In this document: piece after piece, positions 23,751 through 35,462 of the stretch
Layout of the letters: each line of letters opens with the position of its first letter
How positions within the stretch are numbered: position 1 is the first letter of the stretch
Assembly (NCBI RefSeq): GCF_000013025.1
Contig: NC_008358.1
Location: forward strand, 1,302,001 to 1,366,000
Length of the DNA stretch: 64,000 nucleotides
Direction of reading: 5' to 3'
Origin: Hyphomonas neptunium ATCC 15444
GTDB lineage: Bacteria; Pseudomonadota; Alphaproteobacteria; Caulobacterales; Hyphomonadaceae
Notes under the pieces: model-generated
Databases searched by the model: none
Told to the model about the DNA's origin: nothing
The model's input: the letters and a program-made list of their open reading frames with translations, nothing else
Position numbers and translations under genes: made by a program

Positions 23751-24278
23751 GTGAAGAAACTCTTTTTTGGCATTGTCATCCTGGGTGCAGCGGCCGCTGC
23801 GGGCTATTGGTTCTACATAAACATGCCGGGTGGCCAACTTGATCAGGCGCGGGAAAGACGAACGGTCATAGACCTTCAGACAGCCAGCAATGTGGTATTG
23901 AGTTGGATGAGCGTGAGTTTGGATGAAGGTGTTACCGGTATCTCGAGCGATCAGCCGCCAACGGTTTTTACCCTGCCCGCTATCACCAATTCAACGCAGC
24001 AAGTACCGCTCAGAAAATTATCGTATGAAGACTTGATGCTTAAGGTGGAACCCAAATTTGGGCGTCAGTTTTCGAAAACCGATGGCTGGGGGCGTGACTT
24101 CGAATTCTATCTGGCTGACGAATTTTCTGGCAACACAGTTTTCCTGATACGAAGCGCAGGGCGCGACAAAGTTTTTTCAGGCGAGTCTTATACCAAGGGC
24201 ACGGTCGAGACCGGGACGCCCAATGATGACCTGGTAATTCTGGATGGGTCCTTCCTGCGCGGGCCCACACCGAAATAA
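23751..24278 (+). CDS. Membrane-anchored protein with pseudopilin-like C-terminus, lower-GC
   Basis: A 175-residue protein with one N-terminal hydrophobic helix (LFFGIVILGAAAAAGYWFYI) and a periplasmic remainder. The segment TDGWGRDFEFYLADE followed by IRSAGRDKVF resembles the C-terminal DxWGxxxxY and GxDG-like segments of GspG-type pseudopilins, but there is no prepilin GFxxxE site and no secretion genes nearby. The start is GTG at 23751 with AAAGGAC upstream. Codon use is noticeably more A/T-rich than in the flanking genes. Confidence 0.6.
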   Translation: MKKLFFGIVILGAAAAAGYWFYINMPGGQLDQARERRTVIDLQTASNVVLSWMSVSLDEGVTGISSDQPPTVFTLPAITNSTQQVPLRKLSYEDLMLKVEPKFGRQFSKTDGWGRDFEFYLADEFSGNTVFLIRSAGRDKVFSGESYTKGTVETGTPNDDLVILDGSFLRGPTPK

Positions 24279-24468
24279 TTCGCTGGCAGTTACCGCAGAG
24301 AATGCGGCCAGCTAAATGCCAACGCGTTTTCGCTCGCGAGCGCAGTTGGGTCCGAAGCGACCATCATATGACGTCGTTATGGTGGCGAAGCTGATGGGAG
24401 AGGGGCAGGGGCCGCGGGTTCGGGGGCTCTGAGGGTGTGTGTGTTGACTTTCCGGGCAGCGCAAGCCA

Positions 24469-29461: not shown

Positions 29462-30094
29462 TCAGGTGCGGAAGGAGCGGCGGCCGAAATAGGAGCTGCC
29501 AGCGGGCGGTGGGGGCGGGCTGGAGTCGGTGTCGGTGGTTTCTTTTTCGGCTTCGGGGCCGTCGGAGAGGGAGACGGAGGGGCGGGCCCAGGGGTCTTTT
29601 TTCTCTTCTGTTGTTTCTTCGGTTGCGTCTGCTTCAGCCTCTTCAGGCGCGGCCTCATTTTCCGCTGGAGGCGGCGGAACGTCGTGGGAGACGGGATCTG
29701 GAAGCGGCGGCGGGGGCGGCTCGATTTCCTGGCGCGGCTCGGGCAGCGGCTCGGGCAGCGTTACGGCGGAGAGCAGCTTGCGGGCGTGGGCGACGGCGGC
29801 GCTGGCGGTGGAGACTTCAAAGTCCGGCACGCGCTTGTCGAGGCGGCGGGCGAGCTGGCGGGCCTGGTGGTGGGTAAGGGATTTGAGCTGGGCGATGAAG
29901 ATTTCTTCGCCGACGGCGGCCTTGATGATTGCGAGGCTGTCGGGTGTCTGGCCCGCGGAGAGGAGCAGTTTCTTGACGATCATGCCGGCGGCGGCGGACC
30001 ATTCCTTGTCGGTGACCGCGCCCTCAAGCTGGGTTTGCAGGCCGAGAAGGGCGCGCAGGGCATCTGCGCCGGGGACGCCGCCGTCGGCGATCAT
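29462..30094 (-). CDS. Partner protein of the ParA-like ATPase: helical head, acidic/Pro-rich tail
   Basis: A 210-residue protein that I do not recognise. Residues about 1-115 look helical (GLQTQLEGAVTDKEWSAAAG, LTHHQARQLARRL). Residues about 116-200 are low-complexity Pro/Glu/Ala/Thr, and it ends in SSYFGRRSFRT, a compact basic/aromatic peptide. It has no DNA-binding domain of a known ParB. Its ATG overlaps the parA-like stop (ATGA), so the two are co-translated and probably interact. The head-tail-peptide layout suggests an adaptor linking the ATPase to another partner; this is inference. Confidence 0.7.
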   Translation of the reverse strand: MIADGGVPGADALRALLGLQTQLEGAVTDKEWSAAAGMIVKKLLLSAGQTPDSLAIIKAAVGEEIFIAQLKSLTHHQARQLARRLDKRVPDFEVSTASAAVAHARKLLSAVTLPEPLPEPRQEIEPPPPPLPDPVSHDVPPPPAENEAAPEEAEADATEETTEEKKDPWARPSVSLSDGPEAEKETTDTDSSPPPPPAGSSYFGRRSFRT

Positions 30095-30975
30095 GCAACC
30101 TTCTCCCGGACTTCGGCGAGGAGCTGCTCGATGATCTGGAGCGCTTCGCCCGACCATTTGGCCTGGAGGGTGGGGTCTGGACCCAGCTCGATGGGGTTAC
30201 TGGCGAAGCCCGGTTTCATCGGGATGACGGTCTTGAACATCGCGAATTCGGTCTCCGCTGCGCTTGACGCGTCCCGCATCGCGCCGAGCACGACCTGCTG
30301 ATGGGAGGAGCCATCATAGCGGGTGGCCAGGACGCAGGGGAGCGTTTCGATGTCCCGGTCTCGCAGATTCTTCATGATGTCGCCAGTGAAGAGGTCGAGC
30401 CCCAGCGTGGACATGAAATCCGGGATCGTGGGCACGATGATCAGGTGGCTGGCGGCGAGGACGGATTCGGTCATCACCGAGATGCCGGGCGGGCAATCGA
30501 AGAGGATGACATCGTATTGCGCCTTGAGGAGGTTGAGATCATCGCGCAGGCGGCGGCCGACCTGATTTTGCAGCGCCTCCATGGCGTAGCCCTTGGCGGT
30601 GAGCTCGAAGATCAGCTCGCGCTCGGTCTTGCGCAGGCGCGGCGAGGAGGGGATGAGGTCCAGCGGCAGGGGCTTGCCCTTGAAGCTGACATCGCTCGCA
30701 TCGGTGGTGATGAATTCACCCAGACGGCGCTGTTCGTTGGCGAAGAAATTCTCCAGCAGCCAGTCTGAAATGGTCATGTAATCGTTGATGGCCTGGAACA
30801 GGTGTTCATCGCCATTGTTGCCGAAGATCAGCAGCGAGGCGTTGGCCTGGGTGTCGAGGTCAATCACCAGCGTGCGCATGCCCGAAGCCGCGAAGGCTTC
30901 TGCGAGGCTGACGCAGGTGGTTGTTTTGCCGACACCGCCTTTGGAATTGGCGATCGATATGACGCGGGCAGACAT
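30091..30975 (-). CDS. Orphan ParA-family ATPase
   Basis: A 294-residue ParA/Soj-type ATPase. The deviant Walker A motif is SKGGVGKTTTC (residues 11-21), followed by Walker A' LVIDLDTQANAS and Walker B VILFDCPPG. It lacks the N-terminal HTH of plasmid P1-type ParA. The downstream partner is not ParB, and there are no parS-like repeats nearby, so it is probably not the chromosome-partition ParA; positioning of another cargo is more likely. The start at 30975 gives MSARVISIANSK; AGGAA lies about 14 bases upstream. It sits directly beside the GTA remnant. Confidence 0.85.
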   Translation of the reverse strand: MSARVISIANSKGGVGKTTTCVSLAEAFAASGMRTLVIDLDTQANASLLIFGNNGDEHLFQAINDYMTISDWLLENFFANEQRRLGEFITTDASDVSFKGKPLPLDLIPSSPRLRKTERELIFELTAKGYAMEALQNQVGRRLRDDLNLLKAQYDVILFDCPPGISVMTESVLAASHLIIVPTIPDFMSTLGLDLFTGDIMKNLRDRDIETLPCVLATRYDGSSHQQVVLGAMRDASSAAETEFAMFKTVIPMKPGFASNPIELGPDPTLQAKWSGEALQIIEQLLAEVREKVA

Positions 30976-31209
30976 TTTGCGATTCTGTTCCTGTCTTGGG
31001 CGGAGGTCCGGCTCTTGCCAGATTTGGGGGGGTAAGGCCACCCGTTATCCCCGGTTTTGAGCCGCGGGGCCGCATAAAAAAACGTCAATGATTCAGCGCG
31101 GCGGCGCCGGGCGCGGGGAATGTTTGTGCCTGCCAATCCTGCGGGAGTTGGGGGAAGTCCAGAATGAGCACTGTCGGAACACGCCCGGCAGCGACCAGGG
31201 AGCTGGACA

Positions 31210-31579
31210 TTGAACTGGAATTGGCCATTCGCAAAATCAAGGCAGGAGCTGAAATCGGCGCCGGATATGGCGTGGCCGCTGGTGGCGCTGAGCGAGCCGC
31301 TCGCGGCCAGCTGCGGCAGCCGCGAGGCGGGCGCGCTGACGCGGGACGGATACCTGAAGAACGCCGTGACGTATCGCTGTGTGCGCCTGATGAGCCAGCC
31401 GATGCCCGAAGCGGAAGGCGGGGTTCCTCGAAGCAGTGTATACGGATCTTCTTTTGACGGGGAACGCATTTGTGGAGACTGCGCGCTCGGGCGAACGGGA
31501 GGCACCACGGGCGCGGATCGCAGTGGCGGGTTTTCAGAGCACGGAAGAGAAGCCTGCATTGGCGGGGGTGGCATCATGA
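31210..31579 (+). pseudogene. Remnant of an HK97-family/GTA portal protein gene (g3-like)
   Basis: The first frame, TTG at 31210 with AGGGAG upstream, reads NWNWPFAKSRQELKSAPD and then LTRDGYLKNAVTYRCVRLM, the normal N-terminus of GTA/HK97 portal proteins. The next portal block appears about 30 bases later in another frame (from about 31412: GFLEAVYTDLLLTGNAFVE), so the roughly 35 residues between them are deleted with a frame change. After TARSGERE the frame runs on to a short tail (GFQSTEEKPALAGVAS) and stops at 31577-31579, overlapping the next ATG as intact portal genes do. Intact portals have about 400 residues, so a second, larger deletion removed most of the body. Confidence 0.85.
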
Positions 31580-31833
31580 GGAGCCAAGGGAAGGTGCCGA
31601 TCGCGCTGGTGCTGGCCGTTCTGCTGCAGGCGGCGGGCGTGATGTTCTGGGTCGGAGCGGCGGCGGAGCGGATCTCGGCGCTGGAGGCGAGCGCGGCGAT
31701 GGCGCGGCCCGTGGCCGAACGGCTGGCGCGGCTGGAAGGGGAGATGGTCGCTGTGCGCGCGCAGCTGGACCGGATTGAAGGACGGATGGAGCGGCGGCTG
31801 GAGCCACGAATAGAAGATGGCGGTGCGCGTTAA
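31576..31833 (+). CDS. Small GTA-cluster membrane protein (g3.5-like), apparently intact
   Basis: An 85-residue ORF with one N-terminal membrane helix (IALVLAVLLQAAGVMFWVG) and a C-terminal amphipathic coiled coil (RLARLEGEMVAVRAQLDRIE). Position and shape match the short gene between portal and prohead protease in Rhodobacter-type GTA clusters. Its ATG overlaps the stop of the portal remnant. It is the only member of the cluster here without visible damage, though it probably has no role without the rest. Confidence 0.55.
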   Translation: MRSQGKVPIALVLAVLLQAAGVMFWVGAAAERISALEASAAMARPVAERLARLEGEMVAVRAQLDRIEGRMERRLEPRIEDGGAR

Positions 31834-31837
31834 GCCG

Positions 31838-32202
31838 ATGTGGATTTAGGAGTATGCGACCCTGTTCGGCGTGGCGAATACGGGCGGCGCCAGTGTGCGG
31901 GCCGGGGCGTCTGTGCGCAGCCAGCGCCGGGCGGACGCGGGGCGATGCTAATGTTGAACAGCGACGGGGCGCGCGCAGGGCAGTGGACGCGAATGATGGA
32001 AGACAGGCGGGAATTGTATGTGTCCGGACTGGTGGAGGCGCGGGTGAAGCGGGGGATGAGGGGGATCTCTATCGGGTTTCGCCCGTCGCTGTGGCGGACG
32101 CGCGTGAGCGGCAGGCGGGAGCTGATCGAGCTGGAGCTGCTGGAAGTATCCCTCGTACCGGCACCGATGCTGATGGGCGCAAGATTTTCAGTTCAGGGAT
32201 GA
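31838..32202 (+). pseudogene. Remnant of the GTA/HK97 prohead protease gene (g4-like)
   Basis: Frame one starts ATG at 31838, reads three codons, meets TAG at codon 4, then continues EYATLFGVANTGG, the typical protease N-terminus. It later runs into a stop. The rest is in another frame: MLMLNSDGARAGQWTRMMED, LYVSGLVEA, GISIGFRPS (catalytic Ser region) and IELELLEVSLVPAPML, ending at 32202. Family members read NHD where this reads NSD, so the catalytic His appears lost. A short deletion follows LVEAR. One nonsense codon, one frameshift and a lost His make activity very unlikely. Confidence 0.85.
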
Positions 32203-32335
32203 AGCCTGGTTCAGGCGGCGTGAAGTCAAGGGTCACCTTAAGGCGTCGACATGACCAGGGAAACCAGGATGGCAAAGGCTGACATCGGCGAGATGCTGGC
32301 GGGGGAAAGTAGCGCTGCTGAAGACTGCGGCGGGG

Positions 32336-32741
32336 TAGGAACTGGTGCAGTTCCGGGAAGCTGAGCGGGTGAGAGCGGAGCGGTGGCGCCTTTCGGGCGG
32401 GCAAGGCGGGCGGGCAGCGCGGCGGGTGCCGCTGGACGACGCGCTGGTCAAGCGAAGGTGTCGGGGATGGAGACGGGGCTGGCATGGCGGCCGGCGAGGC
32501 TGGATGCGCCGGAGGGCAGCGTGCACCGGGCCAGGCGGGGGCGCCGATGTGCCCGACCCTGTGCGCGGTAGGCTATGCCGTGGAGGCGGACTTCGGGGCG
32601 GGGTCTGGCGGGCGGGCGGTAACGGCGCCGGGCGAGGCAGCGTGGCCGGAGGGGGCGCTGGCTGTAAGAGTTGCCGAGATCGGGACAGACGGACGCATCG
32701 GGGAATGGCTTTCAATCCCGGCCGGTTCGCCTTACCTGTAA
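32336..32741 (+). pseudogene. C-terminal remnant of the large GTA tail/host-specificity protein gene (g15-like)
   Basis: Three fragments in three frames read in order like the end of the roughly 1300-residue GTA TIM-barrel/host-specificity protein. They are VQFREAERVRAERWRLSG (from 32345), GLAWRPARLDAPEGSVHRA (about 32475-32530), and AVGYAVEADFGAG through LAVRVAEIGTDGRIGEWLS, which ends at the TAA at 32741. The first block is the most diagnostic, since RWRLSGLLRGQ-type sequence is a hallmark near this protein's end. It directly follows the protease remnant, so the genes for capsid, tail tube, tape measure and the rest have been deleted. The middle block's assignment is less sure. Confidence 0.7.
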
Positions 32742-32779
32742 ATCCAACAGTTCTCGGCGATCCCGGAAGGAGCCCCAGC

Positions 32780-33637
32780 TTGGCGCTCGACCCCTATAAC
32801 GTCCTCGGCGTGCCCCGCACGGCCACCGAGGCGGAAATCAAGAAAGCCTACCGCGCCAAAGCCAAGGCGCTGCACCCTGACCTGCACCCGAATGACGAGA
32901 AGAAGTCTGACGAGTTCAAGCGGGTGTCGGCGGCGTTTGAAATCCTCGGTGACGCGGAGAAGAAGGCGAAGTTTGACCGGGGCGAAATCGACGGGGATGG
33001 CAATCCGCGCGGCTTTCCCGGTGGCGGAGGACCCGGCGATGGCTATCGCTGGGATACGCGCGGCGGCGGCGCGGCGCAGGGCGATCCGTTTGAGGATATT
33101 CTTTCCGGCATGTTTGGTGGCGGCGGGCGGCGGCGCAATCCCGGCCCGATGAAGGGGCGCGACGTGCGCTACCGCGTTGAGATCAGTTTCGAGGATGCCG
33201 TGACCGGCGCCCGGCGGCGGATGACGATGGCGGATGGCAGCGCGCTGGACGTGAACATTCCGGCGGGCATCACAAGCGGGCAAGTGCTGAGGCTGAAAAG
33301 CCAGGGGCAGCCTTCGCCGACCAGCGGCCCGCCGGGCGACGCGCTGCTGGAAGTGGAGGTGGCCGCCAGCCCGATCTGGACGCGTGAGGGCAATCATCTG
33401 CGCATGAGCGTGCCGATCGACCTGAAGAAGGCGGTGCTGGGCGGGAATGTGGATGTGAAGACGCCTTCGGGTACGGTGTCGCTGAAGGTGCCGCCGGGAT
33501 CGAATACGGGCGCGCAGCTGCGCCTGAAGGGCAAAGGCGTGCAGGCGAGCCCGCCGGGCGATCTTTATGTGCGCCTGGAGATCATGCTGGCCGACCCCAA
33601 GGATGAGGGGTTGCGGCGCTGGGCGGAAAAATCCTGA
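32780..33637 (+). CDS. DnaJ-family (CbpA-like) J-domain protein
   Basis: A 285-residue co-chaperone. The J domain at the N-terminus has LDPYNVLGVPRTATEAEIKK and the catalytic HPD (LHPDLHPND), then a Gly/Phe-rich linker (GFPGGGGPGDGY), then two beta-rich C-terminal substrate domains (ISFEDAVTGARRRMTM, VPPGSNTGAQLRLKGKGV). There is no zinc-finger domain, so it is CbpA-type, stimulating DnaK. The TTG at 32780 with GGAAGGAG about 9 bases upstream is the likely start; the frame runs far upstream only because the decayed GTA DNA is open there. Confidence 0.88.
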   Translation: MALDPYNVLGVPRTATEAEIKKAYRAKAKALHPDLHPNDEKKSDEFKRVSAAFEILGDAEKKAKFDRGEIDGDGNPRGFPGGGGPGDGYRWDTRGGGAAQGDPFEDILSGMFGGGGRRRNPGPMKGRDVRYRVEISFEDAVTGARRRMTMADGSALDVNIPAGITSGQVLRLKSQGQPSPTSGPPGDALLEVEVAASPIWTREGNHLRMSVPIDLKKAVLGGNVDVKTPSGTVSLKVPPGSNTGAQLRLKGKGVQASPPGDLYVRLEIMLADPKDEGLRRWAEKS

Positions 33638-33737
33638 CGGGTTTTCCCTAAACATCGGCGCTGTTCCGTGATAGGATCATAGACCTTCAGATAAGAGCCT
33701 ATCCCGCCTGAGGACGGCCCGGTGAAGGGGACACATT

Positions 33738-35462
33738 ATGAAAACGAGATACCTGCTCGCATCGGCCAGCGTGTTTGCGCTGGGCGGATGCCAGACGATT
33801 CATGACTGGTTCAATCCGAAAACGGAAGAGAGCGCGCTGGCCACGCCTGTGGAGGCGGAGGCGGAAGAGGTGGACCTTGCCACCCGCGCCGGAGCGCCGC
33901 TGTTTGACGGGATGGGCGACTTCCATCGCCCGATCACGACCGCCAGCCCGGATGCCCAGAAATACTTCGACCAGGGGATGGTCTTGTCCTTCGGGTTCAA
34001 CCATGCCGAAAGCATCCGCTCTTTCCGGGCGGCGCAGAAACTCGATCCTGACTGTGCCATGTGCTATTGGGGCGAGGCGCTGGCGACAGGCCCGAACATC
34101 AATGTGACCAGCAACGGCAAGGCCGTCATGTCGATGGCAGACCGTGAGGCCGCCTATACTGCCGTGCAGAAGGCGATGGCATTGCGGCACACGGCGAGCC
34201 CGGCTGAGCAGGCGCTGATCGAGGCGCTCGCGACCCGTTACAGCGCGGATTTCGAAGCAGACCGCGAACCCCAGGATATTGCCTGGGCGCAGGCGATGGC
34301 GGCGTATGTGGCAGCCCATCCGGAGGATGATGACGCCGCCGCGATCTATGCCGAGGCCTGGATGAACACCATGCCCTGGGACTACTGGTCTGCCGATGGC
34401 GCGCCCAAGCCCGATACGGTCAAGGTAATCGAGACGCTCGAGACAACGATTGCGCGCGCGCCGGATCATCCGCTGGCGTTGCATCTCTATATCCATGCCG
34501 TCGAGGCCTCGGATGATCCGGGCCGGGCGGAAGCGGCGGCTGACCGGCTGATCAAGCTGGTGCCGGGATCAGGCCATCTGGTGCATATGCCCGCGCATAT
34601 CTTCTGGCGCGTTGGCCGGTATGATGATGCGGCGGCGGCCAATATCCTGGCGGCGAAGGTGGACGAGGACTACATCGCCCAGTGCAATGCGCAGGGCTTC
34701 TATCCGGCGCTGTATTATCCGCACAATATTCACTTCCTGTGGGCGGCGGCGAGCATGTCCGGCCAGAGCGCCGTGGCGCTGGAAGCGGCGCAGAAGGTGG
34801 CGGACAATGTCCGTATGGAGCAGGTGGAGGCGTTTCCAACTGTCGAGTTCTTCAGAACCATTCCGTTGCTGGCCCATGTTCAGTTCGGCAAATGGGAGGA
34901 AATCCTGGCAATCGAGGCTCCGCCCACGGACCGGGATTATTCCAAAGGCATCTGGCATTATGCCCGCGGGGCAGCCCTGGCACGCACGGGCGAAGCCGAC
35001 GCCGCGAAGGCCGAGGAAGCTGCGTTGGCGAGCCTCAAGGACACGGTCCAGATACAGTTTCTTGTGACGAACGACTATCCGGCCAGCCTGCTGCTGAACA
35101 TTGCCGATGAATTGCTACTGGGAGAAATCGCACAGGCTGAAGGAAACTCGGCGGAAGCCGTGGCCAGGTTTGAGCAGGCCGTCGCCCTGCAGGACCAGCT
35201 GCCGTATACGGAGCCACCCTTTTGGTACTACCCGACGCGGCAGTCGCTCGGCGAAGCGCTGATCGACGCGGAGCGGTATGCCGAGGCCGAAGCGGTCTAC
35301 CGGCGCGACCTTGAGGACCATCCGCATAATGGCTGGTCGATGGCGGGCCTGATCGGCGCGCTGGAGGCGCAGGGAAAAACCGAGGAGGCCGGCCATCTCA
35401 GCCATCATTTCGAGAAGGCCTGGGCCAAAGCGGATGTGGAGCTGAGCGGGTCGCGGCTTTAA
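33738..35462 (+). CDS. TPR-repeat lipoprotein
   Basis: A 574-residue protein with a lipoprotein signal ending LGGC (Cys18). The body consists of helical TPR-like repeats, including SPDAQKYFDQGMVLSFGFNH, CAMCYWGEALATGPNIN, HLVHMPAHIFWRVGRYDDAA and late TPRs (ERYAEAEAVYRRDLEDHPHN). The HMPAHIFWRVGRY block recurs in a family of tetratricopeptide proteins of unknown function. It is probably anchored in the outer membrane facing the periplasm. GAAGGGG precedes the ATG. Confidence 0.82.
   Translation: MKTRYLLASASVFALGGCQTIHDWFNPKTEESALATPVEAEAEEVDLATRAGAPLFDGMGDFHRPITTASPDAQKYFDQGMVLSFGFNHAESIRSFRAAQKLDPDCAMCYWGEALATGPNINVTSNGKAVMSMADREAAYTAVQKAMALRHTASPAEQALIEALATRYSADFEADREPQDIAWAQAMAAYVAAHPEDDDAAAIYAEAWMNTMPWDYWSADGAPKPDTVKVIETLETTIARAPDHPLALHLYIHAVEASDDPGRAEAAADRLIKLVPGSGHLVHMPAHIFWRVGRYDDAAAANILAAKVDEDYIAQCNAQGFYPALYYPHNIHFLWAAASMSGQSAVALEAAQKVADNVRMEQVEAFPTVEFFRTIPLLAHVQFGKWEEILAIEAPPTDRDYSKGIWHYARGAALARTGEADAAKAEEAALASLKDTVQIQFLVTNDYPASLLLNIADELLLGEIAQAEGNSAEAVARFEQAVALQDQLPYTEPPFWYYPTRQSLGEALIDAERYAEAEAVYRRDLEDHPHNGWSMAGLIGALEAQGKTEEAGHLSHHFEKAWAKADVELSGSRL

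Follow-up and report, generated by a model that had tools for sequence, protein, structure and literature searches.

The stretch of DNA analysed here (the window; 64,000 nucleotides, G000:C1:1302001-1366000) belongs to the closed, single-contig, 100% complete genome of Hyphomonas neptunium ATCC 15444 (3,705,021 bp). A gap of about 1.7 kb separates a ParA-like from a DnaJ-like gene in it, and this gap contains, at 31102-32741 on the plus strand, fragments of the structural genes of an RcGTA-like gene transfer agent (GTA). The fragments were delineated mainly against G022, a close relative of the same genus whose ParA and DnaJ are 98% and 93% identical to those of the window.

24390-24432, plus strand: remnant of the large terminase gene (g2), its last ~43 nt, collinear with the terminase 3' ends of G061 and G022
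30091-31041, minus strand: ParA/MinD-like ATPase gene, upstream flank of the GTA site (Pfam AAA_31 and CbiA)
31102-31392, plus strand: portal (g3) remnant, N-terminal part with one internal stop, matching residues 3-117 of the G022 portal
31383-31392, plus strand: junction of a ~60-bp deletion within the portal gene (overlap of match ends against G022)
31418-31486, plus strand: frame-shifted portal remnant, G022 residues ~129 to 151 (match in frame 2)
31481-31486, plus strand: junction of a ~705-bp deletion within the portal gene (DNA comparison with G022)
31481-31579, plus strand: portal C-terminus and stop, G022 residues 385-416 (66% identity over 32 aa; end of the ORF)
31576-31833, plus strand: g3.5 small membrane protein, open frame (80% over 76 aa against G022)
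31783-32220, plus strand: frameshifted prohead protease (g4) remnant with two stops (53% against G022)
32242-32301, plus strand: first ~20 codons of the capsid gene (g5; 70% over 20 aa)
32294-32300, plus strand: junction of the main deletion, ~8464 bp, from the rest of g5 to most of g15
32303-32566, plus strand: remnant of g15 (megatron), G022 residues ~1023-1149, with internal gaps and one stop
32474-32483, plus strand: junction of a ~69-bp deletion within the g15 remnant (comparison with G022)
32484-32741, plus strand: ORF ending in the g15 (megatron) C-terminus, its last ~58 codons clearly homologous
32780-33637, plus strand: DnaJ-like gene, downstream flank of the GTA site (Pfam DnaJ and DnaJ_C)

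When the proteins of G022 were compared with positions 30001-34000 of the window, the N-terminal portal match (31102-31431) showed 68% identity, the portal pieces that follow it lay in a different frame and reached 31576, and the g3.5 match (31576-31803) was free of stops. The 5' part of the protease remnant matches G022 in a second frame, the DNA match at 31481-32300 extends into g5 of G022, and the g15 C-terminal match (32373-32738) has 47% identity over a gapped alignment, its last 58 residues being 84% identical to G008. Scaled to a database of 3.7 Mb, the E-values were 1e-44 and 9e-32 for the portal, 4e-36 for g3.5, 7e-38 for the protease and 2e-25 for g15, so the similarity of the fragments is not accidental; chance resemblance is ruled out by these values together with the synteny. 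The isolated fragments are too weak for Pfam alone (Peptidase_S78 at E = 5e-4 with 20.7 bits against a cut-off of 21, the portal at E = 0.13, and no relevant match for the g15 fragment), and their identity is settled by the same-site comparison with relatives. The initial annotation had recognised a portal, a small membrane protein, a protease and the C-terminus of g15 in GTA gene order, spread over several frames and with most genes between the protease and the tail protein missing. All four were recovered on the plus strand in the claimed order; the portal changes frame and carries a stop, the protease occupies two frames with two stops, and the ~8464-bp deletion relative to G022 removed most of the genes in between. 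The capsid codons, the additional g15 piece at 32303-32566 and the terminase remnant about 7 kb upstream had not been part of that description. The window holds collinear fragments at the orthologous site, as expected of a remnant (pseudogene), and lacks the complete structural genes and terminase expected of a functional element.

The intact counterpart is present in relatives. The interval between the same flanks in G022 measures 11,112 bp; 13 genes take it up and leave no unassigned stretch longer than ~380 bp. Its portal (PF04860, 251 bits) and HK97-type capsid (274 bits) are accompanied by a protease, a head-tail connector, a gp17-like tail completion protein, a tail tube, DUF2460, a baseplate hub, an NlpC peptidase and an Rcc01695-family distal tail protein, and its megatron of 1207 aa scores 1264 bits with NF048004 against an NCBI cut-off of 800, the model having been run in G022 only. 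The check proposed at the outset, to look between these two flanking genes for an intact cluster in relatives, was positive: 13 of 35 same-genus loci contain all 13 genes of G022 in the same order within 11.1-12.1 kb. The size of ~14 kb with ~15 proteins that the initial annotation had given for intact clusters needs correction for this genus: the ParA-DnaJ interval is shorter, 13 genes are recognised and the terminase lies outside it. The distances in the GTA-gene and flank trees of 16 genomes are strongly correlated (Mantel r=0.92; 0 of 2000 permutations as high), with disagreement on G002 and inside two smaller groups, and on these distances the cluster of the relatives has evidently been inherited, for the most part, together with its ParA/DnaJ flanks. 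The features that mark RcGTA-like elements (synteny, a megatron above the cut-off and inheritance with host genes) are thus found in the same-site clusters of the relatives. ParA matches occur in 41 of the 42 same-genus genomes at E<=1e-80 and DnaJ matches in all 42, the genome of the window being counted in both cases. Among 20 portal loci compared, a ParA match within 1.5 kb was found in five, all of this genus, and was absent in 15, of which 13 come from other families and two from this genus (L002 of G014 and L008 of G020); the placement of the GTA beside ParA hence seems to be particular to this genus.

In this genus the large terminase sits upstream of ParA, outside the ParA-DnaJ interval. 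In G061 (L079:4708-6132) and G022 (L080:4268-5695) it lies between host genes whose counterparts in the window stop at ~23.5-23.6 kb and start again at 24.39 kb. The terminase place of the relatives is taken in the window by a 175-aa ORF (23751-24278) that matches nothing in Pfam at E<=0.01. That the closed genome might contain a second, intact copy at another place was also considered and is ruled out, because neither the portal (PF04860), the terminase (PF03237) nor GTA_TIM (PF13547) gave a match at E<=0.001; these family searches missed the known remnants as well, so they exclude intact copies and not further fragments. In another genome with a collapsed locus, a stop interrupts a terminase match located ~21 kb upstream of ParA (G017:C25:101389-101787); the match is perhaps a terminase caught in decay.

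Relative to G022 the window lacks ~60, 705, 8464 and 69 bp, besides small indels. The proposed loss of the GTA by internal deletion is borne out in the form of one ~8.46-kb and three smaller deletions. The proposed continuing erosion is likewise borne out by the substitutions on the window branch, which are spread over codon positions 1/2/3 as 36/45/41 (~500 sites each; uniform, p = 0.61) when polarised with G008 and G061 together. Over the same sites the G022 branch has 11/5/19 (p = 0.015), a moderate third-position bias in 35 changes only, and ParA and DnaJ on the window branch have 5/4/26 (Fisher p = 3e-5 against the remnant). With a single outgroup the window-branch counts are 43/50/53 (G061) and a less flat 48/66/97 (G008). 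The even spread means that the remnant drifts much like non-coding DNA, and g3.5, with 2/5/6 at its few sites, is no exception. Judged by codon positions, the remaining ~1.7 kb evidently evolves without coding constraint. The initial annotation had called the locus a dated snapshot of domestication loss, which is too strong; what the comparison yields is a relative order and no date in years, with drift of the remnant since the split from G022, and the case is one loss among many.

Both flanks lie on one piece at 35 loci of the genus, of which 13 have the full-length interval (11.1-12.1 kb) and 22 a collapsed one (381-5825 bp). Recognisable GTA pieces persist in all the collapsed loci except those of G011 and G023, a portal piece in 16, a g15 piece in 17 and both in 13, and pieces of the genes from the capsid to g14 are retained in three (G003, G005 and G035), at a piece threshold that missed the 20 capsid codons of the window itself. 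At the far end of the series the flanks are separated by 381-390 bp (G065, G015 and G026b). The vacated site of L050 (G023) and L048 (G011) is occupied by ~2.5 kb of other DNA, in which transposase fragments and a ~400-aa ATPase-like ORF were recognised by eye, and an acetyltransferase-like ORF, also identified by eye, lies inside the collapsed site of L058 (G012; 572-1129). In L053 (G019; 161-1786) the deletion has left an open frame of 542 aa, in which the portal N-terminus runs without a frame change into roughly the C-terminal 480 aa of the megatron. The second locus designated G026b comes from the G026 bin (74% complete, 4% contamination), in which two ParA-DnaJ loci, L056 and L064, one full length and one collapsed, are perhaps derived from two species.

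In the freshest collapsed loci (G003, G013, G019, G034 and G035) the portal and neighbouring retained genes are still open, and the collapsed branch is still third-position-biased (38/18/148, 19/7/64, 37/22/83, 32/23/107 and 11/8/35, respectively). In G003 the retained 5' genes are open, but two frame changes occur in the g15 remnant. Five collapsed genomes (G003, G012, G013, G019 and G035) still have an open terminase frame near ParA, 465-483 aa long, which implies that the structural cluster went first there.

The number of losses was estimated on a locus tree of ParA and DnaJ with 43 rows, 18 intact and 23 collapsed, in which some branches are weakly supported. It includes eight contig-split genomes: G001, G002, G004, G009 and G010 were scored as intact as far as their contigs show (at contig gaps G001 is without g3.5, g4 and most of g5, and G004 without g13-g14), G031 was scored as collapsed, and G027 and G029 were left unscored. 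If loss is irreversible, the best tree requires 16 events, and the range over 1000 bootstrap trees is 14-19; unordered parsimony gives 13 changes for all scored rows. If the contig-split genomes are left out of the scoring, these counts fall to 10 losses and 9 changes, respectively. On the locus tree, then, the cluster has evidently been lost repeatedly at one fixed site, in about 16 separate losses. The closest contrasting pair is G064 (intact) and G035 (collapsed), whose identity over ~19.7 kb is 97.9% on one side of the site and 98.3% on the other.

We are all but certain that the locus in the window is an RcGTA-like head-tail cluster which deletions have collapsed and which is now dead. 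HK97-like phages have portal, protease and capsid genes of the same families, and G014, G017 and G020 have other portal genes off-site, on other contigs, so that an ordinary decayed prophage unrelated to GTA might come to mind. The G022 copy, however, has the GTA megatron model and an Rcc01695-family distal tail protein, its 13 genes occupy the interval so fully that an integrase would not fit (as judged from the space in G022 alone), and GTA genes and flanks diverge together, which makes such a prophage very improbable. An assembly or sequencing artefact is next to inconceivable: there is a single assembly of this genome, but it is a closed, complete contig, the remnant bears scattered substitutions and small indels, and 21 other loci are collapsed with differing retained pieces, among them those of isolates putatively assigned to H. 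polymorpha PS728 and H. chukchiensis BH-BN04-4. More deserving of attention is a new role for the remnant, either as leader or promoter DNA of DnaJ or ParA or through a small g3.5 protein. The open g3.5 frame of the window might reflect a residual role, which counts against a wholly dead locus, and the frequent survival of portal and g15 pieces in the collapsed loci points the same way. Nevertheless, codon positions have changed evenly, g3.5 included, and three loci have just 381-390 bp left between the flanks, so that we consider retention for a new role to have a slim chance at most.

The count of losses, as distinct from the death of the locus, faces an alternative that is unlikely but has to be taken more seriously, namely that collapsed or intact alleles were swapped between lineages by whole-locus recombination and that losses were fewer. 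G002, scored as intact, is placed among collapsed genomes on the flank tree and elsewhere on the GTA tree; the cluster may thus have been regained there, which would lower the count. The weak branches, and the lower number of losses obtained without the contig-split genomes, lean in the same direction. On the other hand, the retained pieces vary between collapsed loci, GTA and flank distances are correlated, and with all genomes scored the counts stay at 14-19 losses over the bootstrap trees and 13 unordered changes. Spread of deletion alleles through the GTA's own particles was dropped as a route, since cells with a defective allele make no particles, as stated in the accessible part of PMC6209664, and so cannot export such alleles in this way.

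The history of the dead, deletion-collapsed cluster is as follows. One deletion in the lineage of the window took most of the capsid gene through the megatron, three smaller ones and small indels cut the portal, the protease and the megatron tail, and the terminase gene was lost from its separate site. The deletions may have been illegitimate events that used short or no homology. At most of 13 junctions the aligned ends overlap by -5 to 10 bp; views of G003 and G035 (one each) gave imperfect overlaps of 23 and 35 bp, and the retained pieces of G006 are separated by ~218 bp that do not align. That both cluster ends survive in many collapsed loci is presumably due to their position next to ParA and DnaJ and the regions upstream of these genes. 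The loss may be driven by escape from the cost of lysis.

Small lesions in full-length clusters are rare. A check with the nearest queries covered 230 gene-by-cluster cells, taken from full-length and contig-split clusters, and reported seven; six of these are explained by contig ends (two), a longer g14 query from G022 (three) or a portal stop before the likely start (one). The seventh, in the megatron of G018 (L022), a single-contig genome with an otherwise full-length cluster, is a candidate frameshift at about aa 104-107; it may be a small lesion at an early stage or an error of sequencing, or reflect a start further downstream. In contrast, net loss is at least 5.3 kb in all 22 collapsed loci when compared with the shortest intact interval, the smallest (~5.3 kb) being that of G003, by a single ~5.6-kb deletion. 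Repair of lesions by GTA-transduced alleles has been proposed by Redfield and Soucy (PMC6209664, in its accessible part). To this we would add a size threshold and a genomic footprint: as long as particles are still produced in a population, transduced wild-type alleles might repair small lesions and be unable to repair deletions exceeding the packaged fragment, so that mostly large ones become fixed. Such a size ratchet fits both the single candidate among 230 cells and the large net loss in every collapsed locus, yet we hold it to be a long shot. The G018 frameshift and the megatron of G029, an unscored draft, which is split between two frames, speak against it, plain deletion bias with fast decay could yield the same picture, and the ~5.6-kb deletion found in G003 would fall below the threshold if the particles packed 8.3 kb, like those of Caulobacter.

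RcGTA-like elements are alphaproteobacterial type I GTAs, for which the formal family Rhodogtaviriformidae has so far been confined to Rhodobacterales, according to the accessible part of PMC9662315. The clusters of the relatives resemble them in head-tail gene content and order, in the megatron model and in divergence with host genes. The differences are that the terminase of this genus lies outside the ParA-DnaJ interval and that most genes are gone from the window, so that no particle is expected from it. DUF6456, which we take to be the domain of GafZ, was found in none of the 42 same-genus genomes, a Caulobacter vibrioides control being positive; since those with an intact cluster lack it as well, its absence is uninformative as to residual function in the window. 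CcGTA of Caulobacter crescentus, a related member of the order, shares the RcGTA-like head-tail cluster but is functional, packs ~8.3 kb and is driven by GafYZ (PMC9632790, accessible part). Recurrent pseudogenisation and loss of GTAs in several alphaproteobacterial lineages, explained by cheaters, are described in the accessible part of PMC10883770. The kind of event is thus known, and the addition made here is a site-resolved parallel series within one genus, in which sister genomes that have or lack the cluster are compared at one fixed site and the retained pieces are mapped per gene. No description of the Hyphomonas locus or of the graded series was found in the GTA literature on Hyphomonas/Hyphomonadaceae or on GTA loss, covered as passages of a few papers and otherwise mostly as titles and beginnings of abstracts.

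Why costly GTAs persist for very long and are nevertheless lost repeatedly is treated as an open question in the accessible parts of PMC10883770 and PMC6209664. With 23 of 41 scored loci lacking the cluster at one site, from fresh deletion to near erasure, and with sister pairs as close as G064 and G035 (flanks ~98% identical), loss becomes countable: the number of losses, the size of lesions, the order of decay and the traits that accompany loss. Absence is not confined to this genus. GTA_TIM (PF13547) occurs in 21 of its 42 genomes, split in two frames in G029 and as a 50-position fragment in G031, and in 54 of 91 genomes of the family at least 90% complete (18 of 38 in this genus, 36 of 53 in other genera). 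Four MAG records (L090, L093, L095 and L096) bear the titles Acidobacteria/Candidatus Sulfopaludibacter and contain a ParA 86-87% identical to that of the window; these titles look wrong.
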